The position numbers and the translations under genes are program-made. A model generated the notes under the pieces. That model worked only from the letters and a program-made list of their open reading frames with translations. It made no database searches and was not told the DNA's origin. Positions 437 through 21,491 of a stretch of 64,000 nucleotides of DNA are shown here, piece by piece. The stretch's first letter is position 1. Each line of letters begins with the position of its first letter. The stretch spans positions 558,001-622,000 of the forward strand of contig NZ_JACHTM010000002.1 in NCBI RefSeq assembly GCF_015354055.1, written 5' to 3'. Source of the stretch: Thermaurantiacus tibetensis. Lineage in GTDB: Bacteria; Pseudomonadota; Alphaproteobacteria; Sphingomonadales; Sphingomonadaceae.

Positions 437-608
437 GGAACAGGTTCCGGCTGCAGGGGCGGAAAGGGCGAGGGCGGCATAGCCGGCCCCCTCGGCGCCG
501 GCAAGGCCGGGCCGGGCCGGGACCGCCGTCATCACCCGGCCGAGCCCGCCTTTCATCGGTCTTTCATGGAGTTCGTCTAGCACGCTTGACTCGGGTCGGA
601 GCTGCGCC

Positions 609-1652: not shown

Positions 1653-1723
1653 CCCGCCGATTCAGCTTGCGCTCAGCATGCCGGGGGCCTTCAGGGGGCC
1701 CATTGCGCGAGAAAGGGGAAGGA

Positions 1724-2659: not shown

Positions 2660-3624
2660 CGTCCGGGCACTTCGCGGCAACCGTCCACGCGCTTCTCGGC
2701 CCCGCGGCCGACCCATCGGCGCCGCTGGCGCTCGCCGTCTCGGGCGGCGCGGATTCGCTTGCCCTCCTCGTCCTTGCCGCGGAGGCCTTCGCGGGCCGCG
2801 TGGCCGCACTCACCGTCGACCACGGGCTCCGGCCGGAGGCCCGCGCGGAAGCCGAGGCCGTGGCGCGGGCCGCGGCCGCGCGCGGCGTGCCCCACGCCAT
2901 CCTCGCCATCGCCCCGCCGGGACCTTCGAACCTGCAGGCGGACGCGCGGGCCGCGCGCTACGCGGCCATGGCCGACTGGTGCCGGAGCAACGGCATGGCG
3001 GCACTCCTCACGGCGCACCACCTGGACGACCAGGCCGAGACGCTCCTGCTGCGCCTCGCGCGCGGCAGCGGCCTTGCCGGGCTTGCCGGGATCCGGGCGC
3101 GGGCGGTGATTGCCGGCCTCCCCGTGCTCCGGCCCCTGCTCGACTGGCCCCGGGCCACGCTTGCCCGCATCACCCGCGAGGCGGGGCTCGTTCCGGCAGA
3201 CGATCCCTCGAACCGCGACCCCCGCTTCGACCGCACGCGCGCACGCGCGCTCCTCGGTTCGTGCCGGTGGCTGGCACCGGCGCGGCTCGCCGCCAGCGCC
3301 GCGCATCTCGCCGACGCGGAAGAGGCGCTCGCCTGGGCGGCGGAGCGGGCCTGGGCGTCACGCGCCCGAGCGCAGGGCGGCGGCTGGGAGCTGGACCCGG
3401 AGGCCCTGCCGGGCGAGCTCAGGCGACGGCTGCTGCTCAAAGGCTTCGCTGCGCTTGGGGCGCCGGCGCCGCGCGGGCCGGCGCTCGCGCGGCTCATCGC
3501 TTCTCTCGAGGCGGGGCGCCGCGCGACGCTGGGCGGCATCGCCGCGCGGCCCCTGGCCGATGGCCGGTGGCGGCTTCTCCCCGCGCCGCCCCGGCGCCGC
3601 CCGGCCGGGCACCCGAGCGCCTAG
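2647..3624 (+). CDS. tilS: tRNA(Ile)-lysidine synthetase
   Basis: A 325-residue protein with the PP-loop SGGADS at residues 32-37, followed by LTVDHGLRPEA and LTAHHLDDQAETLLLRLARG, the TilS signature. The enzyme attaches lysine to C34 of the CAU-anticodon tRNA(Ile), so that it reads AUA; it is essential. The C-terminal substrate-binding region is short, as in many alphaproteobacteria. It starts inside the end of cpoB, an arrangement (cpoB-tilS) common in this class. Its stop codon overlaps the convergent lpoA-like gene. Confidence 0.93.
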   Translation: MRTLTSGHFAATVHALLGPAADPSAPLALAVSGGADSLALLVLAAEAFAGRVAALTVDHGLRPEARAEAEAVARAAAARGVPHAILAIAPPGPSNLQADARAARYAAMADWCRSNGMAALLTAHHLDDQAETLLLRLARGSGLAGLAGIRARAVIAGLPVLRPLLDWPRATLARITREAGLVPADDPSNRDPRFDRTRARALLGSCRWLAPARLAASAAHLADAEEALAWAAERAWASRARAQGGGWELDPEALPGELRRRLLLKGFAALGAPAPRGPALARLIASLEAGRRATLGGIAARPLADGRWRLLPAPPRRRPAGHPSA

Positions 3625-4862
3625 AAGCTGGTGGGCGCCGGCGACTCGGTCACGAAGCCGGAGGGCGTGATGCGCCGGACCTCGAGCCCGCGCTCGACGA
3701 CATTGTCGCGGAAGCGGAAGATGCCGTCGACGCCGGCGAAGCCCTTGGGGTCGCGCAAGAGCGCCGGCGGGAAGGGCGTGCCGATCTCCCACCGGCCGGC
3801 AAGCCCGATCGCGAGCAGCGTCGCATCGTAGGCAAGGCTGGCAAGGCGCGAGGGGTTGGAGCCGAACCGCTCGCGGTAGCGGCGCTCGAAGGCAGCGAAA
3901 CGCGAATCGGGGACGGCGGCGAAGAGCGCCCCGTGAAACGCCGGCACGCGCGCAAGGCCCGGGTCGGCGGCCCAGAGCTCGGTGCCGAGAAGCATGACCT
4001 GCGGCGGGCGTGCGCCGAACTGGGCAAGGCTTGGCACGAGCGCGTTGGCGGTTGCGCCGGAGTCGGCGATGAGGAGCGCCTGGAAGCCGATGGGAGCCGG
4101 GTTCCCCGGCGTCCCCGCCTTGACGCGGGCGTCATAGGCGGTGATGCGGCGGGCCGCGGCAGGGAGCTGCTCGCGGGCCCGGGCGAAGCTGGTGACGGCC
4201 GCCACCTCGCCGCCGCCTGCCTGGACAGCGCGCGTGAAGGCTACCGCCGCGCGCTCGCCATAGGCGCCGTTCGGGACCAGGGCCGCGAACCGGGTGATGC
4301 CCCGGCCGCGCGCATGCGCCACCACCCGCTCGATCGACTGGGCGGGCTGGAAGCCGAGGACGTAGACATTGTCCCGCGCCAGCGCGGCATCGTTCGAGAA
4401 GGCGAGCACGGCCACGCCGCGCTGGGCGGCAGGTGCGGCAACAGAAGGGATGTCGGCCGCCAGCAGCGGACCAAGGATGAGCTTCGCGCCGTCAGCGAGC
4501 GCGCGGCCGGCAGCAGCGGCCGCGCCCCCGGGGGCGGCGGTGTCGTAGCTGGTGATCCGTACGGTGGTGCGGCCGGTGTCGGCGAGCGCGAGGTTGGCGG
4601 CGTTCGCAAGCGACTGGCCGACGGCGGCATTGGCACCGGAAAGGGGGACGAGCACGGCCACCTGGTGGCGGCGCTCGGGCGGCGGGGCATCGGGCGGCGC
4701 CTCCTCGACGACGGGCGGCGGCGGGGGCGACGGCGCGGGGGGCGGCGTCCGCGGCGCGCAGGCCGCAAGCGCCGCCAGCGCGGCGAGCGCGAGCCCGCGC
4801 CAGGCGCCACGGCCGCCCGGCAACCGGACCGAGGCTTGCGCCCCTTCGAGCATCGTCGCCAT
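3621..4862 (-). CDS. LpoA/LppC-like penicillin-binding protein activator lipoprotein
   Basis: A 413-residue lipoprotein. The N-terminus (~20-36) is hydrophobic and ends in LAALAAC, a lipobox. A Pro-rich tether follows, then a periplasmic-binding-fold domain (~65-400, with VAVLVPLSGANAAVGQSLANAANLALAD). The family (LppC, PF04348-like) includes LpoA, the outer-membrane activator of PBP1A; in alphaproteobacteria this role is inferred. Its start is 10 bp from the divergent rsmI start, a conserved pairing, so the two share a promoter region. Confidence 0.85.
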   Translation of the reverse strand: MATMLEGAQASVRLPGGRGAWRGLALAALAALAACAPRTPPPAPSPPPPPVVEEAPPDAPPPERRHQVAVLVPLSGANAAVGQSLANAANLALADTGRTTVRITSYDTAAPGGAAAAAGRALADGAKLILGPLLAADIPSVAAPAAQRGVAVLAFSNDAALARDNVYVLGFQPAQSIERVVAHARGRGITRFAALVPNGAYGERAAVAFTRAVQAGGGEVAAVTSFARAREQLPAAARRITAYDARVKAGTPGNPAPIGFQALLIADSGATANALVPSLAQFGARPPQVMLLGTELWAADPGLARVPAFHGALFAAVPDSRFAAFERRYRERFGSNPSRLASLAYDATLLAIGLAGRWEIGTPFPPALLRDPKGFAGVDGIFRFRDNVVERGLEVRRITPSGFVTESPAPTSF

Positions 4863-4872
4863 AGCTCCTCCC

Positions 4873-5763
4873 GTGACCGCCCCTCGCGATGGCCCCGCGG
4901 CCCCGGCTCCGCTGGCGCCCGGGCTCTACATCGTTGCTACGCCCATCGGCAACCTCGCCGACCTGTCGCCGCGGGGAGCCGACATCCTCCGCCGGGCCGA
5001 CCTCATCGCCTGCGAGGACACGCGGGTGACCGCAACTCTCCTGCGCGCGGCCGGAAGCCGGCGGCCGATGCTGCGGCTCGACGACCATCGCGAGCGCGCA
5101 CGCACCGACGCGCTCGTCGCGCGCATGGCCCGCGAGTCGGTCGCGCTCGTCTCCGATGCGGGCACGCCGCTCGTCTCCGACCCGGGCTTCGTGCTGGTGC
5201 GGGCAGCGCGGGAGGCGGGGGTTCCGGTCACCACCGCGCCCGGCCCCTGTGCTGCGGTCGCCGCGCTCAGCATCTCGGGCCTGCCCGCCGACCGCTTCTT
5301 CTTCGCCGGCTTCCTGCCCGCCGCTCCCCGCGCGCGCGAGGCGGCCATCGCCGCGCTCGCCGCCGTACCCGGCACGCTCATCTTCCACGAGACGGCGCCG
5401 CGGCTTGCCGCAACGCTCGCAGCGCTCGCGGCGATTCTCGGCGACCGGCCGGCGGCGGTCGCCCGGGAACTGACGAAGCGCCACGAGGAGGTGGTGACCG
5501 GCCGGCTCGCCGAGCTTGCGGCGCGCTTCGCCCAGTCCCCGCCCCGGGGCGAGATCGTGGTGCTGGTGGGCCCGCGGGCCGAGGAGGCGGCCACCGATGA
5601 CGAGGTCGAGGCAGCGCTCAGACGCGCGCTCGCCACGATGCCGCCGGGGCGGGCGGCAGCGAGCGTGGCGGCCGCCTTCGGCGTGCCGCGCGGAGCGCTC
5701 TACGCCCGGGCGCTTGCGCTTGCCGCCGAAGACGAGGGGGAGGGCGGGTGTGACGCGACGTGA
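4873..5763 (+). CDS. rsmI: 16S rRNA (cytidine1402-2'-O)-methyltransferase RsmI
   Basis: A 296-residue tetrapyrrole-methylase-fold enzyme. Motifs are LYIVATPIGNLADLSPR at the N-terminus, CEDTRVT, LVSDAGTPLVSDPGF (SAM binding), and HETAPRLAATL with ELTKRHEEVVTG in the C-terminal half. It 2'-O-methylates C1402 of 16S rRNA. A GTG start at 4873 gives the normal family length; the frame is open upstream into the lpoA antisense strand. The 3' end overlaps yraN by 14 bp. Confidence 0.92.
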   Translation: MTAPRDGPAAPAPLAPGLYIVATPIGNLADLSPRGADILRRADLIACEDTRVTATLLRAAGSRRPMLRLDDHRERARTDALVARMARESVALVSDAGTPLVSDPGFVLVRAAREAGVPVTTAPGPCAAVAALSISGLPADRFFFAGFLPAAPRAREAAIAALAAVPGTLIFHETAPRLAATLAALAAILGDRPAAVARELTKRHEEVVTGRLAELAARFAQSPPRGEIVVLVGPRAEEAATDDEVEAALRRALATMPPGRAAASVAAAFGVPRGALYARALALAAEDEGEGGCDAT

Positions 5764-7077: not shown

Positions 7078-8049
7078 ATGGCCCGGCCGCTCAGGATCGC
7101 CGTCCAGATGGACGCCATCGAGGGAATCAACGTCGCCGGCGATTCGACCTTCGCCCTCATGCTCGAGGCCGAGGCCCGGGGCCACGCCATCGCCCACTAT
7201 CTGCCGGGCGACCTCGACTGGGTGGAAGGCCGGGTCGAGGCGACCGTCCGCGACATTAGCGTGCGTCGCCCCGCGGCACCCGGCGAACCCCACTTTCGCT
7301 GGCTCGGCCCGCCCCGCCGGGCGGAGCTCGCGCGCGCCTTCGATGTGGTCCTCATGCGGCAGGACCCGCCGTTCGACATGGCCTATGTGACGGCCACCCA
7401 CCTGCTCGAGCGCGCCGCAACCGAGGGCCTTCTCGTCGTCAATGATCCGGCGTCGGTCAGGAACGCGCCGGAGAAGCTCTTCGTCCTCGCGTTCGCCGAC
7501 CTCATGCCCCCCACCCTCGTCACCCGCTCGCTCGAGGCCGCGCAGGCGTTCCGCGCCCGCCACGGCGAGGTGGTGGTAAAGCCGCTCTACGGAAATGCCG
7601 GCACGGCCGTGTTCCACGTGGCGCGGACGGATGCCAACCTCGCCGCGCTCGTCGAGATGTTCCGCCACGTCTGGCGCGAGCCCTTCATGGTGCAGGCCTT
7701 CCTCCCCGAGGTGGCGCAGGGCGACAAGCGCATCATCCTCGTCGACGGCGAGCCGGCGGGCGCCATCAACCGCCTGCCCCGCGACGGCGAGATCCGCTCG
7801 AACCTCGCCGCCGGCGGCTCGGCCCACGCCACCACGCTGACACCGCGCGAGAAGGCCATCTGCGACCGGCTGGGGCCGCATCTCAGGGACCTCGGCCTCG
7901 TGTTCGTCGGCATCGACGTGATCGGCGGGTGGCTCACCGAGATCAACGTGACCTCGCCGACCGGCATCGTCGCCATGGACGCGTTCAATGGCACCAACAC
8001 CGCCGGCCGGATCTGGGACGCGATCGAGCGGCGGAGAGCAGCACGATGA
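7078..8049 (+). CDS. gshB: Glutathione synthetase
   Basis: A 323-residue ATP-grasp enzyme. It starts MARPLRIAVQMDAIEGINVAGDST, has MRQDPPFDMAYVTATHLLE, the ATP-grasp segment GEVVVKPLYGNAGTAVF and the Mg-binding end GIDVIGGWLTEINVTSPTG. It joins glycine to gamma-glutamylcysteine, the last step of glutathione synthesis, in the cytoplasm. The length and motif order match the proteobacterial GshB family. It is coupled to the downstream aldehyde dehydrogenase by an ATGA overlap. Confidence 0.94.
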   Translation: MARPLRIAVQMDAIEGINVAGDSTFALMLEAEARGHAIAHYLPGDLDWVEGRVEATVRDISVRRPAAPGEPHFRWLGPPRRAELARAFDVVLMRQDPPFDMAYVTATHLLERAATEGLLVVNDPASVRNAPEKLFVLAFADLMPPTLVTRSLEAAQAFRARHGEVVVKPLYGNAGTAVFHVARTDANLAALVEMFRHVWREPFMVQAFLPEVAQGDKRIILVDGEPAGAINRLPRDGEIRSNLAAGGSAHATTLTPREKAICDRLGPHLRDLGLVFVGIDVIGGWLTEINVTSPTGIVAMDAFNGTNTAGRIWDAIERRRAAR

Positions 8050-9467
8050 AGGTCAGGAATCCGCGGACCGGGGCCTTCGACCATGCCATCGCCCCGCTCG
8101 ACGGCGCGGCGCTCGCCGCCATTGCCGCCGGGCTGCGCGCGCGCCAGCCGGCGTGGGAGGCGCTGGGCCCCGAGGGCCGGGCCGGCCGCCTCGTCGCGCT
8201 CGCCGACGCGATCGAAGCGGGGCGGCCGGCCCTCCAGGCCGCGCTCGAGGCCGACACCGGCCGGCGCGCCCTTTCCGCCCGCGAGATCGACACGGTGACG
8301 GCAAGTCTCCGCCGCTGGGCCGCCCGCGCCCCCGCCCTGATCGCAGAAGCAGCCGTCCGCGACCGGCCGGGCGCGATGCCCGGCGTCACCCACAGCGTCT
8401 CGCTTGTTCCCTACCCGCTGGTCGGCGTCATCAGCCCGTGGAACTTCCCGCTGCTTCTTGGCCTTGCCGACGCGGTGCCGGCACTGGCCGCGGGCTGCGC
8501 CGTACTGGTCAAGCCCTCGGAAGTGACCCCGCGCTTCATCCGCCCGCTGATGGCCGCAGTGGAGGCCGTGGGCGACGTTCCGCTTGCGGTGGTGGAAGGG
8601 GATGGCGCAACCGGGGCGGCGCTGGTGCCGCTCGTCGACTTCCTCGCCTTCACCGGCTCGGTTGCGACCGGTCGCAGGGTGGCCGAGGCCGCGGCGCGCG
8701 CCTTCGTGCCAGCGAGCCTCGAGCTTGGCGGCAAGGATCCGCTCCTCGTGCTGGCCTCGGCCGACCCGGAGCGGGCGGCCGCCATCGCACTCTCGGCCTC
8801 GTGCCGGGCAACCGGCCAGGCCTGCCAGTCGATCGAGAGGATCCTCGTCGCCCGGCCCCTCCTCGAGCCCTTCCTCGCCGCGCTGGTGCCCGCGGCCGAG
8901 GCGGTCACGCTCAACTGGCCCGACATCGACTCGGGCGATCTCGGCCCCTTCATCTTCGCGAAGCAGGCGGAGATCGTGGCCGCCCAGATCGCAGACGCCG
9001 TGGCGAAGGGCGCGCGGGTGCTGACGGGCGGCCGCATCGAGGACCATGGCGGGCTGTGGCTGCGCCCGACCGTGATCGTCGACGTCACGCCCGACATGGC
9101 GGTGTGGCGCGAGGAGACCTTTGGCCCGGTGATGCCGGTGATGCCGTTCGACACCGAGGAGGAGGCAGTCGCGCTCGCCAACGCCGGGGACTATGGCCTC
9201 TCGGCCGCGGTGGTGGCCGGCAGCCTTGCCGAGGCCGAGGCGGTGGGCCGGCGGCTCGAGGCGGGTGCGGTCTCGCTCAACGACGGCGCGCTCACCTCGC
9301 TCCTCGCCGACGCACCAAAGACGAACTTTCGGCTCTCCGGTCTCGGGCCGTCGCGCGCCGGCGACGAGGGGCTGCTCCGCTTCCTCCGGCGCCGGGTGCT
9401 CTACGCGCAGGGCGGCACGCCGCTGCCGCTTGCCGCCTTCAGCGAGGCGCAGCGAACACCCGCCTGA
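8046..9467 (+). CDS. NAD(P)-dependent aldehyde dehydrogenase
   Basis: A 473-residue member of the ALDH superfamily. It shows the cofactor loop VISPWNFPLLLG, KPSEVTP, FTGSVATGRRVAE, the catalytic Glu in LELGGKDP, the catalytic Cys in TGQACQSIERI, and EETFGPVMPVMPF. The substrate cannot be told from sequence; it is a medium-length, non-acylating ALDH. The ATGA overlap with gshB suggests joint expression, but there is no obvious pathway link. Its 3' end overlaps the convergent dapE by 29 bp. Confidence 0.85.
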   Translation: MKVRNPRTGAFDHAIAPLDGAALAAIAAGLRARQPAWEALGPEGRAGRLVALADAIEAGRPALQAALEADTGRRALSAREIDTVTASLRRWAARAPALIAEAAVRDRPGAMPGVTHSVSLVPYPLVGVISPWNFPLLLGLADAVPALAAGCAVLVKPSEVTPRFIRPLMAAVEAVGDVPLAVVEGDGATGAALVPLVDFLAFTGSVATGRRVAEAAARAFVPASLELGGKDPLLVLASADPERAAAIALSASCRATGQACQSIERILVARPLLEPFLAALVPAAEAVTLNWPDIDSGDLGPFIFAKQAEIVAAQIADAVAKGARVLTGGRIEDHGGLWLRPTVIVDVTPDMAVWREETFGPVMPVMPFDTEEEAVALANAGDYGLSAAVVAGSLAEAEAVGRRLEAGAVSLNDGALTSLLADAPKTNFRLSGLGPSRAGDEGLLRFLRRRVLYAQGGTPLPLAAFSEAQRTPA

Positions 9468-10578
9468 GGACGGCGTCGTAGACGTCGGCGAGCGCCGCGA
9501 TGTCGGCGAGCGACGCCTGCTCGTCGACCCGGTGCATCGTCTCGCCCGGGAGGCCGAACTCGACCACGGGGCAGAGCCGGCGGATGAACCGCGCGTCCGA
9601 CGTGCCGCCCGAGGTGGAGAGCGCAGGGCTCACCCCCGTCACTTCCTCGACCGCGTCCTGCACGAGGGTCGAGAAGGGGCCCGGCTCGGTCAGGAAGGCC
9701 TCGCCCGAAATGCGCACCTTCACTTCCGCCGCGGGCGCGTGGGTGGCGACCACCTGCTCGATCCAGCCGGCGAGCTCGGCCCCCCGGTGCTGGTCGTTGA
9801 AGCGGATGTTGAGCCGGGCGGAAGCCCTGGCGGGGATGAGGTTGGTGGCGGGGTTGCCGACCTCGAGGTCGGTCACCTCGAGGTTCGAGGGCGCGAACCA
9901 GGCGCTCCCTTCGTCGAGCCGGCGGGACTGGAGCTCGGCGAGAATCCGCACGAGGCGCCGCACCGGGTTGTCGGCCCGGTCAGGGTAGGCGACATGGCCC
10001 TGGGCGCCGAGCACGGTGATCCAGGCGTTGAGGCTGCCGCGGCGGCCGATCTTCACGCAATCGCCCAGGCGGCGGACGGAGGTGGGCTCGCCGACGAGGC
10101 AGAAGTCGGGCACGTGGCCGTGCGCTGCCATCCAGTCGAGGAGGCGGTCGGTGCCGAAGGTGGCCGGGCCCTCCTCGTCGCCGGTGACGAGGAAGGATAG
10201 CGATCCGGGGCTCCCGCGCGCGACATGGCGGCGGGCGGCCTCGACCATCGCGGCGAGCGCGCCCTTCATGTCGGCAGCGCCGCGGCCGACGAGGACTCCG
10301 CCCTCGACATGGCCGGCGAAGGGGTCGACCGACCAGCGCGAAAGGTCCCCCGGCGGGACGACGTCGGTATGGCCGGCAAACGCGAAGTGCGGGGCGCCGT
10401 TGCCGAGGCGGGCAAAGAGATTCTCGACCGGCCCGTCGGGGGCCTCGCCGAAGCGGAGGCGGAAGGTCTGGAAGCCGAGCGCGGCAAGCTCGGCCTCGAG
10501 GAGCGGGATGGCGCCGGCGTCAGCGGGTGTGACGCTGGGGCAGCGGACGAGGGCGCGGGCAAGCTCGATGACGCTCAC
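9439..10578 (-). CDS. dapE: Succinyl-diaminopimelate desuccinylase
   Basis: A 379-residue M20-family zinc hydrolase. Metal ligands and catalytic residues are in AGHTDVVPPGD, GRGAADMKGALAAM, TGDEEGPATFGT and the C-terminal GETMHRVDEQAS. SGGTSDARFI near the C-terminus is specific to DapE. It releases succinate from N-succinyl-LL-2,6-diaminoheptanedioate in lysine and peptidoglycan precursor synthesis. The start codon is GTG. It lies at the end of the minus-strand stretch below the broken glutathione S-transferase. Confidence 0.94.
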   Translation of the reverse strand: MSVIELARALVRCPSVTPADAGAIPLLEAELAALGFQTFRLRFGEAPDGPVENLFARLGNGAPHFAFAGHTDVVPPGDLSRWSVDPFAGHVEGGVLVGRGAADMKGALAAMVEAARRHVARGSPGSLSFLVTGDEEGPATFGTDRLLDWMAAHGHVPDFCLVGEPTSVRRLGDCVKIGRRGSLNAWITVLGAQGHVAYPDRADNPVRRLVRILAELQSRRLDEGSAWFAPSNLEVTDLEVGNPATNLIPARASARLNIRFNDQHRGAELAGWIEQVVATHAPAAEVKVRISGEAFLTEPGPFSTLVQDAVEEVTGVSPALSTSGGTSDARFIRRLCPVVEFGLPGETMHRVDEQASLADIAALADVYDAVLRRVFAAPR

Positions 10579-10630
10579 CGGTTTGCCCTAGCGCAGGGCA
10601 GCAGCGCTGCAAGGCGGAGCGGCGTCGCGG

Positions 10631-11287
10631 TCAACGCTCGTAGCGCGCAAGGACGTGGCCCTCGGTTTCGGCGGCCGCGCACCATTCGGCCATGAAGGGG
10701 TGGGCCATGAGGCGCTGGCGCAGCCCCTCGGCCGCCGGGGACAGGGCGACATCATAGGTGGTGAAGCGGCTGGCGACGGGGGTGAACATGATGTCCGCCG
10801 CGCCCCAGTCCGGGCCTGCGAGCCACGGCCCGCCGAAGCGGGCGAGGCCTTCCTCCCACAGCGCCTCGACGCGGCGGACATCGGCCCTGGCATCGGCCGC
10901 GAGGGCGAAGCCCGGATACTGCCGGCGCGTGTTCATGGGGCAGAAGCCGCGCAGCGCCTGAAAGCCCGCCTGCATCTCGGCCGCGACCGAGACCGCGAAG
11001 GCGCGCGCGGCCGAGTCCGCCGGCCAGAAGCGGGTGCCGCCCGAGAGGCGGTCGAGATGGTCGATGATTCCAAGCGCGTTTCACGACGCCACCGCGCCAT
11101 CCCAGAGGATGGGGACCTTGCCGCCCGAGGGTGCAAGCTCGGCCCGGCGCCTCGTCTCCTCCCAGTCGGCTTCGTAGAGCGGCAGGAAGATCTCCTCGAA
11201 GGGGAGGCCCGACTGCTTCGCAGCGAGCCAGCCGCGCAGCGACCAGGAGGAATAGGCGCGGTTGCCGATGAACAGGCGAAGCGTCAT
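10631..11287 (-). pseudogene. Glutathione S-transferase gene interrupted by in-frame TGA
   Basis: The reading frame starts MTLRLFIGNRAYSSWSLRGW and continues to LARYER at 10631 without any frameshift, 219 codons, the normal length of this GST type. Codon 69 is TGA (plus-strand tca at 11081-11083). The interrupted segment reads WDGAVAS-stop-NALGIIDHLDRL. In relatives the corresponding segment is of the form VWDSLAI, so the stop falls where a tryptophan is expected and a single TGG-to-TGA change explains it. Both halves keep good GST similarity (N-terminal thioredoxin fold, then the helical domain with FWPADSAARAFAVSVAAEMQ). Either the gene is recently inactivated or the base is a sequencing error. 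Confidence 0.8.
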
Positions 11288-11312
11288 CGCGAAAACCCCG
11301 GTCAGGCGGGCG

Positions 11313-12254
11313 TCAGAGCGCGCCCATCTTCAGGAACTTCTCCCGCCGGGCCTCGCGCAGCGCCGCACGCGGCTGGGCCTCGAGCGCGGCCAGCTCCTCG
11401 GCAAGCGCGGTTCTCACCCGGGTCATGGTGAGCGCGTGGTCGCGGTGGGCGCCGCCCACGGGCTCGTAGACGATGCGGTCGATGACGCCGAGCCGCAGCA
11501 GGTCGGCAGCCGTCACCTTCATCGCCTCGGCGGCTTCCGGGGCCTTGCTGCCGCGGCCCGCGGGCGTGCGCCAGAGGATCGAGGCGCAGCCTTCGGGCGA
11601 GATGACGGAGTAGATGCTGTGCTCCAGCATGAGCACGCGGTTGCCTGCGGCGATGGCGACGGCGCCGCCCGAGCCGCCCTCGCCGACGATGAGGGCAACC
11701 AGCGGGACGCCGATGGCAAGGCAGGTCTCGGTGGTCCGGGCGATCGCCTCGGCCTGGCCGCGCTCCTCGGCATCCACGCCGGGGAAGGCGCCCGGCGTGT
11801 CGACGAAGGTGATGACGGGCAGGCCGAAACGGTCGGCGAGCTGCATCAGGCGCTGCGCCTTCCGATAGCCCTCGGGCCGGGCCATGCCGAAGTTGTGGCG
11901 CAGGCGGCTCTCGGTATCCTCCCCCTTGGCGTGGCCGATGACGACGACGCTCTGGCCCTCGAAGCGGGCGAGCGCGCCGACGATCGCCGGATCCTCGCCA
12001 TAGAGCCGGTCGCCGGCGAGCGGCATCACCTCGGTGAAGAGGCCTGCGAGATAGTGGGGGATGTGCGGGCGCGCCGGGTGGCGGGCGACGAGCGTCCGCT
12101 GCCAGGGGGTGAGGCGCGCATAGAGGTCCTTCAGCTGGCGGGTGGCGCGCTCGCGAAGCTCGGCGGCCTCGGCCGCCCTGCCCTCGCCTTCCGCCCGTGC
12201 CGCGCTCGTCTCGAGCGCTGCCACGCCCGCCTCGAATTCGAGATAGGTGCTCAC
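11313..12254 (-). CDS. accA: Acetyl-CoA carboxylase carboxyltransferase subunit alpha
   Basis: A 313-residue AccA with YLEFEAGVAALE, the LTPWQRTLVARHPARP helix, VVIGHAKGEDTESR, FVDTPGAFPGVDAEERGQAEAIA, IGEGGSGGAVAIA-like VGEGGSGGAVAIAAGN and the oxyanion region SVISPEGCASILWR. With AccD it transfers carboxyl from biotin to acetyl-CoA, giving malonyl-CoA. The start is a GTG inside the mcr stop (GTGA overlap at 12251-12254), so it is translationally coupled to the enzyme that consumes malonyl-CoA. accB, accC and accD are not in the window. Whether the genome has a second accA cannot be seen here. Confidence 0.94.
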   Translation of the reverse strand: MSTYLEFEAGVAALETSAARAEGEGRAAEAAELRERATRQLKDLYARLTPWQRTLVARHPARPHIPHYLAGLFTEVMPLAGDRLYGEDPAIVGALARFEGQSVVVIGHAKGEDTESRLRHNFGMARPEGYRKAQRLMQLADRFGLPVITFVDTPGAFPGVDAEERGQAEAIARTTETCLAIGVPLVALIVGEGGSGGAVAIAAGNRVLMLEHSIYSVISPEGCASILWRTPAGRGSKAPEAAEAMKVTAADLLRLGVIDRIVYEPVGGAHRDHALTMTRVRTALAEELAALEAQPRAALREARREKFLKMGAL

Positions 12255-15200
12255 ACCGTCATGGCCATGCCGCGATAGATGCGGGCGCGGTAGCGGGAAT
12301 CCTCGGCGTCGGGAAGCGGTGCGCCAGCGAGCAGGACGGCGCGCGCGAACCGTTTCACTTCCTCCAGATGCTCATCGAGGTTGCGCGGCTCCTCCGAGCG
12401 GACCCGGCGGGTCATGCTGATCTGGTTCACTGGCACGTCGTGCACCAGCCGCTCGTTCTCGACCGCGAGCGTGACGGTGAAGGCGTGCAGCGTGGTCTTG
12501 AGGAAATTGGCCAGCGCGAAGGCAGGGCCGGGCGTTCCCATGGGCACGTCGGGCGAGCAGATGACAAGCTGGCAGCCGTCGTAGAGCGAGGCCTTGCGCG
12601 CCACCCGGAAATGGTGGGTGAGGTTGTCTTCCACCATCTGGCGGAAAGCCTCGGGCTCGAGCGGGTGCTCGGGCTCGAACAGCCGGTCGGGAAGTGGCGC
12701 AAAGGGGGTGGAGACGACCGTGGTCGGCCGGCCCCAGCGGGCCAGCGCCTCGTCCATCGCCGCCTCGACCCCGGGCGCGCAGAGGAGGCATTCAAGGCCG
12801 CTTCCGGCGAGTTCGCCGAGCTGCCGCTGGAGCGCCTCCACACCCGCCTCGCTCGCGGCGAGGAAGACGACTCGGGCGACATGGCAGTCCTCGAGTAGCT
12901 GGCGGGCGGCCTCGGCGAGATAGTCGGTCAGGTGCTCGCCGATGAGCCACACGGTCTTGCCGCGCATCATGTCGAGCCGTTCCTGCTTGGGGCTGCCGAA
13001 GAGTTCCCGCTCGGTGGTCGAACGCTCGACCGAAAGCCCGCCAGAAGGCATGAAGGTCTCGCCCGACACCGCCCGGTCGGCAAGGAAGAAGACGGTCGCC
13101 TGGGCGACGTCGGCCTCGGTCGGCATGCGGCCGAGGTGGAGCTGGGAGAGGACGCCGGAGCGCACCTTGACTGCCTCGCCCCGGATTCGCTCGGGGGGCA
13201 GCCAGGGGACGTCCTCGGGCGGCACGCGCAGGAGCCAGCCCTCGTTGGCCTCGGGCGTGTCGGGCCGGTCGCTCCAGCCCGGCGCATCGAGGAAATAGCC
13301 GCCGAGCCGTAGCCGGCCGACGAGCCGGGCTGCGACCTTGGGCGTCAGCAGGTAGCGGTCCCAGGTGCACACGCCGTCGCCTTCGCGGGCGCAGGCAAGG
13401 GCGAGGTCGCGAAGCTCGCGCGGCGAGTTCGGGTCATGGCTCAGCTGTGCGGTGTCGTTGCGGGCAAGGCGGGCCAGCACCGCCTCGACGCGCGCGCCGC
13501 GCCTGACCGCCTTCACCACCGCGGCGTGGACCGCGTTCAGCCGCTTGTTCTCGAGGATGAGCCGGCCGCGCCGCTCGAACAGGCCCGGCTTGCCGCCCGT
13601 GCCCTGCAGCCGGTCGCCATCGACCGGGCCGGGGGCGATGGCGTTGAACTGGATCTCGGGGCCGAGATAGCGGGCGAGGCTCTCGACCATGGCGCGCTGG
13701 CCGGCCTTGGAGACGGCATAGTCGGCGCGGTTGGGGTAGGCGACGGCCAGGAACTTCTCCCCCCCGAAATAGCTCGAGACATTGAGCACATAGCCCGAGC
13801 CCTGCGCCTTCATGAGCGGCACCACATGGTGCATGAGGACATAGTTGGAGACGAGGTTGGCATCGAGCGTGCGGCGCCAGGCCTCCGGGTCCATGTCGAC
13901 CACCATCTCCTCGGCGCCGGCGATGCCGGCATTGTTGATGAGATAGTCGATGCGGCCGAAGGCCTTCACCGTCTCGTCGACGGCGCGCTGGAGCGAGTCG
14001 AAGTCGGCGACGTCGATGCCGGAGAGCGTGCGCACGCGCCGCTCAACGCCGGCGAAGCCCACGTCCTCGAGCTCGGAGACGATACGCGCACGGGCCACCG
14101 CCAGCTCGCTCTCGCGCCGCGCAACCATCATTACCTTGCCGCCGGCGAGCGCGAGCAGCCGCGCGACCTGCCCGCCGATGCCGGCCGAGCCGCCGGTAAT
14201 CAGGGCGACCTTGCCACGATGGAGGCCGGTGATGTTCTCCGAGAAGCCCGGCATGGCCTTGCGCGCGCCGGTCGCCTCGCCGATCTTCTGCGGCAGGTAG
14301 AGCGTCACTTCCTGGATCCGGTTCTCCTTGAGCAGGATCCGCGCCGCGTGCCCGGCGGCGAAGCGCAGGTTCTCCGCCTCGTCGTTCGTGAAGCGGACGA
14401 TCTGGTTGCCCCACTCGGCCTGGCGGCGGCGGCCATACTTCACGTCGAGCTCGGACTCGTCCCGCCACACCCGGATGAGCTGTTCGAGCCCGGCGCGCAG
14501 CAGGTTGGCCACGATGTCGCCCCGGCCGTCGGTCGGGTTGGAGAGGAAGACGAAGCGCGGGTCCTGCACCAGGCTGTCGTGCCGCTTCCAGTAGCGGCTG
14601 AGCGTCCGCGCAATCGCGATCGCGCCAAGGAGCTCGACGTCCATGAAGGCAGTCACGTCCTCGTCGCTCGCGTCGACCACGGTGCCGGCAAGCACGCCCG
14701 GCCCCCTGGCCGGCATGACGAGCGCGGAGGTGACGGGAAGTGCCTCCGCGGTGAAGTCCTCGAGCGCCTGCTCCATGCCGGGAAGGTCGGTGCGGTTGAA
14801 GCGGACGATCGAAAGGCGCTCGGTCGCGCCCTCGGCCCGGGCGCGGGCCTGGGCCAGCGCGACATCGGCCTGGCGCGAGAGGCCGAGGAGCACGTGGGCG
14901 CCGGCCGCCACCTTCACCTTCGCGATCTCGAGCGCGTCCTCCCACTGCTCGCCCCCGGCGATGAGCACGGCAAGCCCGGTGCCGTCCATCGAGCGCATGG
15001 TCGGTCGGGCGAGCCAGGTCGAGCGGCTTTCCTTGCGCACGGTCATGCCGTGCGTCACCTCGATGTCGTGGCCGTTCAAGGCGGCGCTCGCGTCCGAGCC
15101 GAGGAAGACGATGGTGGCCGCCACATCGGCGGGCGTCGGGAAGGCCTTCTCGCCGTCGGTGCGGGAGAGGTCCCGGTTGAGCGACATCATGTCCGAATAT

Positions 15201-15961
15201 TGCTTGGCGGTGGTGCCCGGCGGGTCGCCGCGCATCCGGTCCATTGCGGCGAACACGGTCCGAATGCGGTCGCTCTCGATCGGGCCGGGGTAGACGAGGT
15301 TGACGCGGATGCCCTTCGGCCCGAGCTCGAGGCTGAGCTCGCGCGAGAGCGCGTTGAGCGCTGCCTTGGGCACCACATAGGCGGTGCGGCCGAAGTAGGG
15401 CGTGCGCGAGAAGATGGTGGAGACGTTGATGATGCTCCCCCCGGCACGCATGTGGGGCGCCGAGGCGCGCGCCATGTTCCAGGCAACGCCCAGGATGTTG
15501 CGGATGGCGGCCGGCACCGTCTCGTCGTCGGCAAGCCCCCGGGCCCTGAGGGCCGCAAGCTCGTCTTCGGTGATGGGCACATTCTCGAGCGGCTGCTTCG
15601 GCCCGGCCGACCCGGCGTTGTTGACGAGGATGTCGATGCGGCCGAAGCGGGCGACCACCTCGGCAACCCCGGCGCGGACCGAGTCCGGGTCGGCACCGTC
15701 GAGGACGACGGTCGCGACCTGCTCGGGGTGAGCGCCGGTTGCCGCCAGCACCGCCTCGCGCGCCGCCTCGATGCGCGAGGGCGTACGCCCCGTCATCACG
15801 ACGATCGCGCCTTCCTTCAGATACTGGCGGGTGATCTCGCCGCCGATGTTGCCGGCCGCACCCGTCACCACCGCGACCTTTCCGGCCAGCCGGCCGGTGA
15901 GCTCGGGCATGGCGCCGGCCTTCCTCGCCGGGCGCCTGCGTGCGGCCGCCATCGTCGTCAT
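12251..15961 (-). CDS. mcr: Bifunctional malonyl-CoA reductase (two fused SDR modules)
   Basis: A 1236-residue protein, close to the ~1220 residues of Chloroflexus MCR. The N-terminal half has an SDR nucleotide site TGAAGNIG (33-40), NNAG (~114), Ser181 and Tyr195/Lys199. The C-terminal half has TGGSAGIG (589-596), NNAG (~676), SS at 729-730 and Tyr748/Lys752. A non-catalytic SDR-like segment follows each. In the characterised enzymes the C-terminal half reduces malonyl-CoA to malonate semialdehyde and the N-terminal half reduces that to 3-hydroxypropionate, both with NADPH. Both active-site sets are intact here. It lies 16 bp behind pcs and overlaps accA. The family assignment is strong from length, tandem layout and neighbours; an unrelated fused SDR is unlikely. 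Confidence 0.93.
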   Translation of the reverse strand: MTTMAAARRRPARKAGAMPELTGRLAGKVAVVTGAAGNIGGEITRQYLKEGAIVVMTGRTPSRIEAAREAVLAATGAHPEQVATVVLDGADPDSVRAGVAEVVARFGRIDILVNNAGSAGPKQPLENVPITEDELAALRARGLADDETVPAAIRNILGVAWNMARASAPHMRAGGSIINVSTIFSRTPYFGRTAYVVPKAALNALSRELSLELGPKGIRVNLVYPGPIESDRIRTVFAAMDRMRGDPPGTTAKQYSDMMSLNRDLSRTDGEKAFPTPADVAATIVFLGSDASAALNGHDIEVTHGMTVRKESRSTWLARPTMRSMDGTGLAVLIAGGEQWEDALEIAKVKVAAGAHVLLGLSRQADVALAQARARAEGATERLSIVRFNRTDLPGMEQALEDFTAEALPVTSALVMPARGPGVLAGTVVDASDEDVTAFMDVELLGAIAIARTLSRYWKRHDSLVQDPRFVFLSNPTDGRGDIVANLLRAGLEQLIRVWRDESELDVKYGRRRQAEWGNQIVRFTNDEAENLRFAAGHAARILLKENRIQEVTLYLPQKIGEATGARKAMPGFSENITGLHRGKVALITGGSAGIGGQVARLLALAGGKVMMVARRESELAVARARIVSELEDVGFAGVERRVRTLSGIDVADFDSLQRAVDETVKAFGRIDYLINNAGIAGAEEMVVDMDPEAWRRTLDANLVSNYVLMHHVVPLMKAQGSGYVLNVSSYFGGEKFLAVAYPNRADYAVSKAGQRAMVESLARYLGPEIQFNAIAPGPVDGDRLQGTGGKPGLFERRGRLILENKRLNAVHAAVVKAVRRGARVEAVLARLARNDTAQLSHDPNSPRELRDLALACAREGDGVCTWDRYLLTPKVAARLVGRLRLGGYFLDAPGWSDRPDTPEANEGWLLRVPPEDVPWLPPERIRGEAVKVRSGVLSQLHLGRMPTEADVAQATVFFLADRAVSGETFMPSGGLSVERSTTERELFGSPKQERLDMMRGKTVWLIGEHLTDYLAEAARQLLEDCHVARVVFLAASEAGVEALQRQLGELAGSGLECLLCAPGVEAAMDEALARWGRPTTVVSTPFAPLPDRLFEPEHPLEPEAFRQMVEDNLTHHFRVARKASLYDGCQLVICSPDVPMGTPGPAFALANFLKTTLHAFTVTLAVENERLVHDVPVNQISMTRRVRSEEPRNLDEHLEEVKRFARAVLLAGAPLPDAEDSRYRARIYRGMAMTV

Positions 15962-15977
15962 CCCCGTCTCCCCGGTG

Positions 15978-18900
15978 TCAGGCGGACCCGGGCGTCACGC
16001 CCGCGGCCCAGAGTTCGAACAGCTCGTCGCGGCTTCTGAGGCCCAGCGCCGGCAGCGCGTGGTTGACGACATAGGTCGCGCCCGAATGGCGGTTCTCCCA
16101 CATCGCCTGGTGCGCCTGCGGCAGCTCCGCCCACGGCACCACCGTCGGCTCGGTCACCTCGAGGAGGCCGGCCGCGATCATGTCGTTCATGCGGCTGACC
16201 TCCCAGGCGTTGCACAGATGCGTGCCGAGGATGGAGGCGGTCGGCATGAGGATCTTCCGCTGGCGGGTCCAGACCTGCGGCGCGTAGAAGGTGAAGCGCC
16301 GGCCCGACATGTCCTCGGCGTAGAGCACCCGGCCCAGGAAGGGCTTGACCAGGCTGGTCGAGACGCCGAGGGAATCCTGGTGGGCCCGCTCGAACACGAG
16401 GTCGGGGGCGCCGCGGGGGTTGTCGGCCGAGCGGAGGATCCGCCCGACCGCGTTGCCGAAGGGCTTGAGCGTCCGCTCCTGATAGTCGCGCACGCCGGCG
16501 CGGAACCGGTCGATATCCGCCTTGGCATCCGGCAGGCGGGGCATGGTCTCGGGCCAGTGGAAGGCGCTGCCGCTGCGACGGGCGATGTCCTCGAGACTGA
16601 CGAGGCCCTCGACGGCATCCTCGAGGCCGAGCCCGGCGAGGAAGGCGCGCTGGCCTTCGGTTGCGGTGGCGACCACGGTCCTGAGAGAAAAGCGCCTGGC
16701 CGCCTCGATCATCTCGAGCCCGGTCTCATCCAGCAGTGCGCCACCGGGCGTGCCGTAGAAGACGAGGAGCGCCTCGCCGCCCCGCGCCTCGGCCCGCCTG
16801 AGCATCTCCTCCGGGCTCGCCCGGCCGGGCTTCCCCATGAAGGAGAAGTGATAGCCCGACGACGCGCCGTAGAAGGCGAGCCGGCCCCCTTCGGCGAGCA
16901 GCTGGAAGGTGCGGGGGAAAGCGGTCTCGCCGGCGTGGGAGACGGCATAGTCGGCAAGCCGGCCGCCGTTCAGCTCGCGCATCGCGGCAAGGAGCGGTTC
17001 GCCGGCGGCCTCCCAGGCTGCCCATTCGGCCGGGTCCTCGGGCACGGGCGTGAAGGCGTCTGCCCAGCGCGGGTCCCGCCGGTTGATGGCGCCGACCGCG
17101 CCCTGCCCCGTCACGAAGGCGGCGCGCTCCGCCGAGGAGACGAGGCCGGTCGCGTGGAGGCCGGTGCGAACGGCCGACTTCAGCGCGTCGAGCCCGGTGC
17201 CGGTCGCCGAACCCTCGACGAAGATGGTGCGGTCGGGCTGGACCTTGAGCGTGGTGAACAGGCAGCGCACCACCGTGCCGAGGTTCAGCACATAGCTTCC
17301 CGCCTGCTCGAGCGTGAGGTCGGCCGGCACCGGGTGGAGCTGCGGCGCCTGCACCTTCAGGAACTGGGCGTGGCTGCCGGTGTCGGTCTCGTAGCCCTGG
17401 ATCGCGAAGTCGGCGAACATGGGGTCGAGCCCGACCATGGGGGAAAGAAGGTCGTTGGTGCCCGAATAGACGGCGACGAGATCGCCGACCTTGAGCCGCC
17501 CTTCCGCGCGCGCTTCGCTGCCCAGCTTCGCGACAAGGCCGATCCCGCCCGAGCCGGTCGTCTGGAAATCCTCCTCGTGGTTGTCGAAGGGGGAGACGGG
17601 AATGCCGGTCAGCGCCCAGATGTCGTTGAAGTTGACCTCGGACGTCAGCATGTAGACGAGGGCGTCATTGGGCCCCGGCTCGGGCACGGGGACGACGAGC
17701 TCGCGTTCGTGGGTGGCGGGCGGGCCGAAGCGGGGCGCGCCGGTCTCGGGGTCGCGGGCGATGCCGTGGGCAAGCTGGAATGGCGGCACCGGCGTGACAC
17801 CGGGGAAGAAGGGCGCGCCGACCGGCAGGAGCTTGCCCGCCGCTGCGAGCGCCGCGGCGCGCTCCTGCTGCGCAGCATAGTCGAAGATTCCGTCGCGGCG
17901 GACGGGGAGCGGCGGGCTCACCTTCTCGACGAACTGGCGGATGCCCGCCTTGCCGCCCTCGGGGTCGACGATGGCTTGCGCGAAGTGGCGCGCCTCGGCC
18001 GCGAGCCCGGCGGCCATCCCCTCGCGCCAGCCGGTGCGAATGGCATCGAGCGCGCGCGCCCCTGCCCTCCCCCGCCCGGCCCAGGCGAGCTGGCGAAGGA
18101 TGCGGGCGACGTGAGGGTCGGCCTCGGCTTCGGCGAGATCGGCGGTGGTCGCCGGCAGCTCCCAGCGCGCGGTCATCGCCTGCCGCGCGGCAAAGGCCGC
18201 CCCGAGCACGCTCGCCTCGCCCTCCGCGAGGAAGGCGCGCACGAGTGCGTGGGCGCGGGAGAGTGCATCGTCGGCTCCCTCCACCACCTCCTCGACGAGG
18301 CCCATGGCCAGCGCCGCCTCGGCGTCGATGCTGCGGCCGCCGAGGATGAGCTCGAGCGCGTCGACGAGGCCGGCGGTGCCGCGCCGCTCGGCGAGCAGCC
18401 GGGGGAGGCGCTGGGTGCCGCCGTAGCCGGGGAGCAGGCGCAGCCGGATCTCGGGCTGGCCGAAGCGCGCGGTCGGCTCGGCGACGCGGACATGGCAGGC
18501 CAGCGCGAACTCCATGCCGCCGCCGAGCGCGACCCCCTGGATCGCGGCGATACAGGGTTTTCCCATCCGCTCGATCCGCGCGAAGGCGAGCTGCGCGGTG
18601 TTGGGCAGCACGCGCGCTTCCTCCTCGTCGTGGATTTCCTCCAGCATCTGGCGGATGTCGGCGCCCGCCACGAACGAGGCCGAGCCCTCGCCGGTGAAGA
18701 CCACGGCGGCCACCGCGTCGTTCCGCGCGAGATGCTCGACGACGATGGCGAGCTCGTCGAGCGCGCGCTCGTTCAATGCGTTGACCGGCGGGTTGGTGAC
18801 GGTGACGGTTGCGACCGTGCGGCCCGACACCGCGTTGTACTGCACCCGGAAGTAGCGGTGGCGCTCGAAGATCTGCTGCGTGTCGGCAAGCTGCTGGCGG

Positions 18901-21491
18901 CGCTGCCAGGCGGCGATGGCGGCCCGGAGTTCGTCGAGACTCTCGGGGTTGCGCAGGGTGGAGGCATCGCCGATGTCGCCGCCCTCGACGAGCGCGCGCA
19001 CCATGCGGCGCATGTACTTGCCCGACCGCGTCTCGGGGAACTGCGAGACCTCGAGGAAGTCCTGGGGCACCGCGACTGCGCCCTTCTCGCTGCGGACGAG
19101 CTCGGCAAGGCGCTTCCTGTCCTCGTGGGTGAGCCTCCGGCCCGGTGCGGGCACGACGAAGGCGAGCGGCGTCAGGCCCTTCTCGCGGTGGGGCGCGCCG
19201 ACGACGAGGACATTGCCCACCGGCGAGCCGGGGTCGAGCGCCTTGTCGCGCAAGATCGCGCCCTCGATCTCCTCGGTGCCCATGCGGTGGCCGGAGACGT
19301 TGATGACGTCGTCCGAGCGGCCGTGGAACGAGAAGCTGCCGTCGGGGTGGCGGATGGCGAAGTCGCCCTGGGTGTAGGCGTAGCCGCCGCGCCAGCGCGT
19401 CCAGTAGTTCGCCTCCCAGCGCGCCGCATCCCCCTTCCAGCCGGGAGCGACGCGGCCATCCTCGACACGGAAGTTCTCGGCATCGCCCCAGACGGTGCGC
19501 GCGAGATAGGGGTAGGGCGCAAGAAGGACGATCTCGCCCTTCTCGCCATCGGCGGCGCGGCGGAAGGGCACGCCGCCCGTGTCCGCGCGGCGGAAAGGAA
19601 GCGGCACGCCCGCGCCCTCTGCATCCTCGACGAACACGTCCCCCACCACCCAGGGCAGCGCCCAGCAGTGGGCGTCGGCGCGCAGCGGGAAGTCGGCGTT
19701 GCCGAACATGTGGGTAAACGCGATCCCGCCATGCTCGGTCGCCCAGTAGCTGTTGATGTACCAGGGCGTGACTTCGGCCATGGCGAAGGCCTGGACCGCG
19801 GGCGAGGTGGGCTCGGCGCAGAAGCTGGCGACGCGCAGGCGCGAGAGGTCGTAGCGGCGAAGGTCGGCAAGGTTCGCCGGGTCGGCCATGATCGACTTGA
19901 GAAACGTGACGCCCGCCTTGAAGATGGTGACGCCGTGGCGCTCGATCATCGCCGCGAAGCGGCCGGCGTGGGGGAAGACGGGCGAGCCTTCGGCAACGAG
20001 CGTGGTCACCCTCGTCAGGAGTGGCGCGGAGATGAGGTAGCTCTGGCCAGTGATCCAGCCCGGATCGGCGACGACGAAGAGCGTGTCCCCGGGCCGGGCG
20101 TCGAAGGCGACCGCCATCGTGTGGGCGATGCCGGCGGTGTAGCCATGGACGTGGACGACGCCCTTGGGCTTCCCCGTCGAGCCCGAGGTATAGATGAAGA
20201 AGAGCGGGTAATCGGCATCGACGGGCAACGGCGGCACGCTCGCCCAGATGGCGCGGACGAGATCGCGGTCGGAAAGGGCGAGGAGCTCGGCTTCGGTCGC
20301 AACCGAAAAGCCCGCGGCCCGCGCGTTGGCGAGCAGGGTCTCGAGCGCGGCGGCGGTGAGCTCATGGGCCCAGCGGTCGCGGCCCTCGCGCCAGACGAGG
20401 TCAGGAACGCCGGCGTGGCGGCAGACGATGACCGCCTCGACCCGGGGCGGGGTTGCGACCAGCGCCGCGGCGGCGGCAATCCGCACCCGGGCGGCCGCCG
20501 CGGAGTCGAGCCGGCCTTCCTTCCCCAGCGCAGCAAGCGCGCGGCCGACCCCGCGCATCGCATCCGCCCGCTCGACCGTGACTTCGCCGGCGAGCGTTGC
20601 CTCGACCGTCTCGAGCACGCGGTCGCGATGGGCCTCGGCAAGGCCGAGCGCCGGGTCGGCAAGCGCCTTGCCAAGCGTCTCGAGCACCACCGGCACCGGC
20701 ACGAAATTGTCGAGCGCAGGGTCGGTGTAGGCGGCCTTGAAGGGGACGACCTGGGCGTTCCTGTAGCCGCCGTCGGCAGTGATGACGATGCGCGCGCCAG
20801 CGTCGGCGATGCGGTCGGACAGCGTCTTGTCGGAGAAGCCGCCGAAGACGGGCGTGTAGAGGATGCCGAGGCGCTTCGCTGCCTCGGTCCAGAAGATCTG
20901 CGCCGGGATGGACGGCATGTTGAGGGCGATCCGGTCGCCGGCGCGAAGCCCGAGCGCCTGGAGCGCGACCGCGCACTTGGCGGTCTCGACGAGGAGCTCG
21001 CGGCGCGAGACCGACCAGCAGTCGACCGGCCCGCCCCGGCCGCCATCCAAGGACATGTCCCAGCGGTCGCCCTCGAAGACGAGGGCGGTCTCGGCACCGA
21101 AGCCGGCGATCACGTGCCGGTCGACCTCGTTGAAGCCGGCGTTGGTGCGCCCGCCCTCGAACCAGCGGAAGTGTGGCGCTTCATCGGCGTTGAAGGCGCG
21201 GCGCCACGGCACCGCATCTGCCGGCAGGTCGGCAACGAGCGGCTCGAGCGTGGCGGCGTCCCAGCCGGTCCAGCGGCCCGAGGCCTCGTCACGCGCGAGC
21301 CAGGCGCCGGCCGGCCCCACCTCGGGCCAGAACCAGTGGAGGAGGCGCGCGGCAATCGCGCCGTGAAAGGCCCCCGGGTCGGCAAGGACGGCTGCGCGGG
21401 CGCGCTCGAAGGCGGCGCGGGTGCGCAACGGGTTCACCTGCGCCTCCGGCACCGCGGGGCGGAACGGGCGCGGATCGGGCTGGTCGGCCAT
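15978..21491 (-). CDS. pcs: Trifunctional propionyl-CoA synthase
   Basis: An 1837-residue fusion that turns 3-hydroxypropionate into propionyl-CoA. Acyl-CoA synthetase domain (~100-860): P-loop YTSGSTGKPKG at 434-444, SGHRMGTEEIEGAI (~733) and the adenylation Lys825 in RSGKYMRR. Crotonase/dehydratase domain (~885-1130): GADIRQM, GGGMEFAL with Glu994 and FGQPEIRL with Glu1014, the two catalytic glutamates of hydratases. C-terminal zinc-free MDR-type acrylyl-CoA reductase (~1290-1837): SEVNFNDIWALTG and EGSATGTG. Length and order match the Chloroflexus and Erythrobacter enzymes. The latter is known to enclose acrylyl-CoA in a reaction chamber. An AAGGGGAG ribosome site precedes the ATG. It is first gene of the pcs-mcr-accA operon. 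Confidence 0.95.
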   Translation of the reverse strand: MADQPDPRPFRPAVPEAQVNPLRTRAAFERARAAVLADPGAFHGAIAARLLHWFWPEVGPAGAWLARDEASGRWTGWDAATLEPLVADLPADAVPWRRAFNADEAPHFRWFEGGRTNAGFNEVDRHVIAGFGAETALVFEGDRWDMSLDGGRGGPVDCWSVSRRELLVETAKCAVALQALGLRAGDRIALNMPSIPAQIFWTEAAKRLGILYTPVFGGFSDKTLSDRIADAGARIVITADGGYRNAQVVPFKAAYTDPALDNFVPVPVVLETLGKALADPALGLAEAHRDRVLETVEATLAGEVTVERADAMRGVGRALAALGKEGRLDSAAAARVRIAAAAALVATPPRVEAVIVCRHAGVPDLVWREGRDRWAHELTAAALETLLANARAAGFSVATEAELLALSDRDLVRAIWASVPPLPVDADYPLFFIYTSGSTGKPKGVVHVHGYTAGIAHTMAVAFDARPGDTLFVVADPGWITGQSYLISAPLLTRVTTLVAEGSPVFPHAGRFAAMIERHGVTIFKAGVTFLKSIMADPANLADLRRYDLSRLRVASFCAEPTSPAVQAFAMAEVTPWYINSYWATEHGGIAFTHMFGNADFPLRADAHCWALPWVVGDVFVEDAEGAGVPLPFRRADTGGVPFRRAADGEKGEIVLLAPYPYLARTVWGDAENFRVEDGRVAPGWKGDAARWEANYWTRWRGGYAYTQGDFAIRHPDGSFSFHGRSDDVINVSGHRMGTEEIEGAILRDKALDPGSPVGNVLVVGAPHREKGLTPLAFVVPAPGRRLTHEDRKRLAELVRSEKGAVAVPQDFLEVSQFPETRSGKYMRRMVRALVEGGDIGDASTLRNPESLDELRAAIAAWQRRQQLADTQQIFERHRYFRVQYNAVSGRTVATVTVTNPPVNALNERALDELAIVVEHLARNDAVAAVVFTGEGSASFVAGADIRQMLEEIHDEEEARVLPNTAQLAFARIERMGKPCIAAIQGVALGGGMEFALACHVRVAEPTARFGQPEIRLRLLPGYGGTQRLPRLLAERRGTAGLVDALELILGGRSIDAEAALAMGLVEEVVEGADDALSRAHALVRAFLAEGEASVLGAAFAARQAMTARWELPATTADLAEAEADPHVARILRQLAWAGRGRAGARALDAIRTGWREGMAAGLAAEARHFAQAIVDPEGGKAGIRQFVEKVSPPLPVRRDGIFDYAAQQERAAALAAAGKLLPVGAPFFPGVTPVPPFQLAHGIARDPETGAPRFGPPATHERELVVPVPEPGPNDALVYMLTSEVNFNDIWALTGIPVSPFDNHEEDFQTTGSGGIGLVAKLGSEARAEGRLKVGDLVAVYSGTNDLLSPMVGLDPMFADFAIQGYETDTGSHAQFLKVQAPQLHPVPADLTLEQAGSYVLNLGTVVRCLFTTLKVQPDRTIFVEGSATGTGLDALKSAVRTGLHATGLVSSAERAAFVTGQGAVGAINRRDPRWADAFTPVPEDPAEWAAWEAAGEPLLAAMRELNGGRLADYAVSHAGETAFPRTFQLLAEGGRLAFYGASSGYHFSFMGKPGRASPEEMLRRAEARGGEALLVFYGTPGGALLDETGLEMIEAARRFSLRTVVATATEGQRAFLAGLGLEDAVEGLVSLEDIARRSGSAFHWPETMPRLPDAKADIDRFRAGVRDYQERTLKPFGNAVGRILRSADNPRGAPDLVFERAHQDSLGVSTSLVKPFLGRVLYAEDMSGRRFTFYAPQVWTRQRKILMPTASILGTHLCNAWEVSRMNDMIAAGLLEVTEPTVVPWAELPQAHQAMWENRHSGATYVVNHALPALGLRSRDELFELWAAGVTPGSA

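Follow-up and report, generated by a model that had tools for sequence, protein, structure and literature searches.

Propionyl-CoA synthase (PCS) and malonyl-CoA reductase (MCR) are the two diagnostic enzymes of the 3-hydroxypropionate (3HP) bicycle, and an earlier note, made from the DNA alone, had found both in Thermaurantiacus tibetensis, encoded together with accA. The question raised by this locus is what such a gene set can do for its host: close an autotrophic cycle, co-assimilate bicarbonate or dispose of reductant. We addressed it in the window, by which we mean the whole stretch of 64,000 nucleotides that was analysed, in the genome around it and in related genomes.

A compact pcs-mcr-accA gene set

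The pcs, mcr and accA reading frames are uninterrupted and lie exactly where the earlier note had placed them (Table 1). Only 16 bp separate pcs from mcr; mcr and accA share 4 bp, at the stop of the one and the start of the other. Spacing is identical in two congeners (L021 and L022), and the gene order recurs in related genomes; a chance arrangement is excluded. The three genes are probably read as a single transcript. Coordinates, full-length protein matches and AccA family cut-offs all agree with the original description of complete pcs and mcr, followed by accA, in a tight minus-strand operon. Beyond pcs-mcr(-accA) the flanks of the related loci that we compared consist of lineage-specific genes, with no further conserved operon partner, and none of the 72,556 plasmids searched for carriage of the locus matched at an E value of 1e-100.

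Table 1. Features of the locus, in window coordinates.
Gene	Product	Positions	Strand	Length	Basis
pcs	trifunctional propionyl-CoA synthase	15978-21491	-	1837 aa	full-length 6eqo match and Pfam domains
mcr	bifunctional malonyl-CoA reductase, four SDR modules	12251-15961	-	1236 aa	8hi4/8hjw and 6k8s/6k8v matches
accA (operon paralogue)	acetyl-CoA carboxylase carboxyltransferase alpha subunit	11313-12254	-	313 aa	PF03255, NF004344
GST-like	glutathione S-transferase-like; 3' of accA	10631-11287	-		family named by eye

Two apparent features of these loci were discarded: a 1971-aa plus-strand frame that overlaps pcs is a shadow frame of high-GC DNA, and an mcr-accA fusion in a related locus (L045) is spurious, produced by a stretch of N. 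The glutathione S-transferase-like gene is probably a mere neighbour, outside the pathway. An in-frame TGA interrupts it at what is a tryptophan codon in the congener L022, where the frame runs intact for 218 aa, and the two genes differ by no insertion or deletion; the window copy is either a recent pseudogene or carries a base error.

Full-length PCS and MCR

PCS aligns over residues 24-1831 with the solved Erythrobacter enzyme (6eqo, 2829 bits). We take the 6eqo and 6k8s entries to come from Erythrobacter NAP1 and Porphyrobacter. The Pfam domains AMP-binding, ECH_1 and ADH_zinc_N mark the fusion of acyl-CoA synthetase, enoyl-CoA hydratase and enoyl-CoA reductase, in the architecture of about 1800 aa typical of PCS, and the motifs YTSGSTGKPKG, PETRSGKYMRR, GGGMEFAL and FGQPEIRL can be read in the protein. 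MCR has the four-SDR architecture of about 1220 aa; it aligns from end to end with 8hi4 and 8hjw, and its two halves match 6k8s and 6k8v. Of the catalytic, substrate- or cofactor-binding residues of the solved Roseiflexus MCR, 22 were mapped, and the window protein has the same amino acid at every one, including Thr165/Tyr178/Lys182, Ser731/Tyr749/Lys753 and the substrate residues Arg799 and Arg746 (Roseiflexus numbering, from PMC10470521). The first reading, a trifunctional PCS and a bifunctional MCR with their active-site motifs, is upheld by these matches, and both proteins are predicted to be active enzymes.

Phototrophy and a predicted route to succinyl-CoA

The window genome (Sphingomonadaceae; 2.75 Mb in 18 contigs, rated 100% complete) contains pufL and pufM, phototrophy genes for which the earlier note had suggested a search, and the RuBisCO large subunit was searched for in it and not found; by this combination we class the host as an aerobic anoxygenic phototroph. 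The same note had proposed a look for the enzymes downstream of propionyl-CoA. Methylmalonyl-CoA mutase is firmly there (1214 bits against an equivalog cut-off of 876), and propionyl-CoA carboxylase is represented by a PccB-like carboxyltransferase, named by family resemblance, its best NCBIfam model (mmdA) staying below its own cut-off. Inspection by eye of about 8.7 kb to each side of pccB (L148) showed no PccA-sized gene. The mutase, together with PccB by resemblance, makes up the predicted route from propionyl-CoA to succinyl-CoA. Isocitrate lyase is also encoded, and 41 of the 43 other mcr genomes searched have a match to its family.

Distribution and phylogeny

Across 84,980 species genomes at least 450 MCR relatives were found, from which the best 80 were kept. 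The closest loci, L022 and L021, both titled 'Sphingomonadaceae bacterium', share 95% and 92% MCR identity with the window. Among the best 80 of the at least 450 relatives, pcs lies directly 5' of mcr in every locus long enough to hold both, and accA lies 3' of mcr in one MCR clade only, made up of Sphingomonadaceae, Erythrobacteraceae and a few bins with other labels. The MCR tree accounts for accA linkage with two events, in the simplest case a single gain and a single loss. The MCR of the window falls among the enzymes of Erythrobacter, Porphyrobacter and Novosphingobium, within the characterised clades; a position outside them would have counted against the earlier note. Its statement that homologues occur in Erythrobacter-type alphaproteobacteria holds as well, the relatives sharing both the enzymes and the gene order. 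One locus labelled Caulobacteraceae (L053) has its mcr inside the accA-linked clade and shows no accA within the 1.3 kb available downstream, which reflects loss, transfer or mis-binning.

The pufLM genes were present in 41 of the 43 other mcr genomes, a sample biased to the window's own clade; the two exceptions are metagenome bins. They were also found in three of four same-family genomes devoid of mcr, and phototrophy is therefore possible without the operon. The pcs-mcr operon thus occurs mostly in phototrophs and is not general among them.

A proposed role in bicarbonate co-assimilation

We consider it probable that pcs-mcr-accA is a bicarbonate co-assimilation operon of an aerobic anoxygenic phototrophic sphingomonad, and not a closed autotrophic cycle. 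AccA, with AccD, AccB and AccC encoded elsewhere, would carboxylate acetyl-CoA to malonyl-CoA, which MCR would reduce to 3HP with two NADPH; PCS would then activate, dehydrate and reduce 3HP to propionyl-CoA at the expense of ATP and NADPH. Propionyl-CoA carboxylase and methylmalonyl-CoA mutase would convert propionyl-CoA to succinyl-CoA, which would enter the TCA cycle. The net reaction would be acetyl-CoA + 2 HCO3- + 3 NADPH + 3 ATP to succinyl-CoA, a stoichiometry that rests on the established reactions of acetyl-CoA carboxylase, MCR, PCS, propionyl-CoA carboxylase and methylmalonyl-CoA mutase. Such a route would be insensitive to O2, would gain carbon and consume electrons, and would pay when light supplies energy. 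Flux through the operon and its role in the light are predictions from gene content. In Porphyrobacter ULC335 the 3HP genes are upregulated by day; that strain has no complete fixation pathway, and CO2 co-assimilation with 3HP enzymes was proposed for it, as in Erythrobacter NAP1 (PMC10674011). The bicycle is likewise described as incomplete in Microcystis-associated aerobic phototrophs (PMC11089705).

Control of pcs by PpsR/CrtJ was considered and rejected: over 66 loci, sites of the type TGT-N12-ACA upstream of pcs numbered 4 against 2.9 expected, and the window has none. There is therefore no sequence evidence for light or redox control.

The operon might instead serve mainly to dispose of excess reductant, when in the light cyclic electron flow builds up the proton-motive force and the oxidation of NADH slows down. 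MCR and PCS use up three NADPH per acetyl-CoA, the operon sits mostly in phototrophic genomes and RuBisCO, as an alternative sink, was not found; however, this disposal would cost ATP and carbon, and no redox-regulator site was found upstream of pcs. As the main function we regard it as possible but doubtful. It is moreover compatible with co-assimilation and does not exclude it, and the two would not, in our judgement, be separable by sequence.

An anaplerotic route for acetate that replaces the glyoxylate bypass would agree with the net conversion of acetyl-CoA to succinyl-CoA and with the mutase and PccB-like subunit of the genome. We rejected it as improbable because isocitrate lyase is present here, and its family in nearly all other mcr genomes searched; growth on acetate should therefore not require the operon.

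Also improbable is the idea that PCS mainly assimilates external 3HP, such as the breakdown of acrylate or DMSP would release, and that MCR plays a secondary part. PCS, identified here by its 6eqo match, does by its established reaction take 3HP to propionyl-CoA alone, but mcr and accA stand with pcs in one tight set that is conserved throughout the clade, which indicates malonyl-CoA as the source of 3HP.

That the operon is part of a complete autotrophic bicycle is very improbable: both diagnostic enzymes, nine family III CoA-transferases and one HpcH/HpaI lyase are encoded, but no full pathway is reported from a related strain (PMC10674011). A profile search of the window genome for a full-length mesaconyl-C1-CoA hydratase (PF19315) found none; the sole match is partial and single-domain (positions 21-185 of 353), in a 165-aa frame that adjoins two CoA-transferases and acyl-CoA dehydrogenases in a cluster of catabolic appearance. 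None of the seven CoA-transferases scanned, of the nine, reached an NCBIfam equivalog cut-off, and the lyase had no NCBIfam family match at 1e-60. All together, the sequences support the first half of the bicycle and the predicted link from propionyl-CoA to succinyl-CoA; the second half is not supported. The caution of the earlier note, that a closed autotrophic cycle is not shown, stands: the hydratase match is partial, and our search for RuBisCO found none.

Two regions were seen in passing. At L147 (G000:C10:828000-847000, 7986-13189) a small MaoC-type hydratase, two family III CoA-transferases and two acyl-CoA dehydrogenases lie beside genes that look like those of ATP synthase, and the cluster looks catabolic. 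Upstream of the single HpcH/HpaI lyase gene, near a contig end, L150 (G000:C13:1-15000, 497-5751) holds CRISPR-associated-like genes, with Cas10-, Cas1- and Cas2-like frames by eye.

Comparison with known systems

The pcs-mcr set is already known from Erythrobacter and Porphyrobacter, and the window operon is a further example. In those genera (6eqo; 6k8s, 6k8v; L028, L033, L042) full-length enzymes, gene order and pufLM are all as in the window; their genomes, however, have a second, housekeeping accA, whereas the window genome has the operon copy only. The bicycle of Chloroflexus and Roseiflexus (MCR 8hi4, 8hjw) uses the same two multifunctional enzymes, with MCR identical at the 22 mapped sites, but in the window genome a full-length mesaconyl-CoA hydratase was not found and the second cycle is not supported. 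Blastomonas, Sandarakinorhabdus, Polymorphobacter, Burkholderiales and Gemmatimonadaceae share adjacent pcs-mcr and, in the genomes searched, pufLM; unlike the window, their operon lacks accA, and nearly all have a single accA elsewhere. The ethylmalonyl-CoA pathway of Dinoroseobacter, cited in PMC10674011, also provides CO2 co-assimilation in an aerobic anoxygenic phototroph, as proposed here, with a carboxylase and enzymes that differ from the 3HP set of the window. With this operon a compact phototrophic sphingomonad joins the organisms apparently able to fix bicarbonate via malonyl-CoA, in the presence of oxygen and without RuBisCO.

The operon accA is a distinct paralogue

The accA paralogue and its sole-copy status are additions to the earlier note. 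The window AccA passes the Pfam and NCBIfam cut-offs (PF03255, 419 bits; NF004344, 423 bits) and retains nearly all positions conserved across the operon and housekeeping kinds; two substitutions, one of them genus-wide, fall at positions otherwise at least 97% conserved. A four-residue insertion at residues 232-235 (AGRG or AGRD) occurs only in this genus (window, L021 and L022).

A second full-length accA is present in 17 of the 19 pcs-mcr-accA genomes searched, the window genome being counted among them. Only the window genome and its congener G385 depart from this pattern; G385 matches a same-genus entry (G457) that is 99% complete. In both exceptions the operon accA is the only full-length copy. 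No genome in a 60-genome sample of the family had more than one accA. In the AccA tree the operon copies, that of the window included, form one side of a branch with support 100/96, suggesting that operon AccA is a paralogue in its own right and became linked to pcs-mcr about once.

The window accA appears to be the sole accA of its genome, a state of which we found no description in the open-licence literature. Most simply, this genus would have kept the operon paralogue and lost the housekeeping accA. Alternatively, pcs-mcr may have inserted upstream of the only, housekeeping accA of this lineage, and the operon then spread to others. The deepest splits within the operon group are not resolved by the AccA tree, which leaves room for such a native-site origin, but it is not favoured, because the housekeeping accA of relatives lies in a conserved neighbourhood with an XerD-like recombinase and an M48-like peptidase (both named by eye) and the window accA has neither beside it.

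If the operon accA is indeed the only copy, fatty-acid synthesis here depends on the 3HP operon, and its product must serve both purposes. We lean towards the view that operon AccA displaced housekeeping AccA in this genus, so that membrane-lipid synthesis and light-associated bicarbonate co-assimilation would be controlled through one operon. The contrast in accA, an additional paralogue in most genomes and the sole copy here, offers a genetic handle on two questions: whether the acetyl-CoA carboxylase step governs the rate of the pathway, and how a cell divides its malonyl-CoA between lipid synthesis and the assimilation of carbon. In one further genome (G389; L112, L113) both AccA proteins lie on very long branches, showing accelerated evolution, and the housekeeping copy retains its M48-like neighbour.
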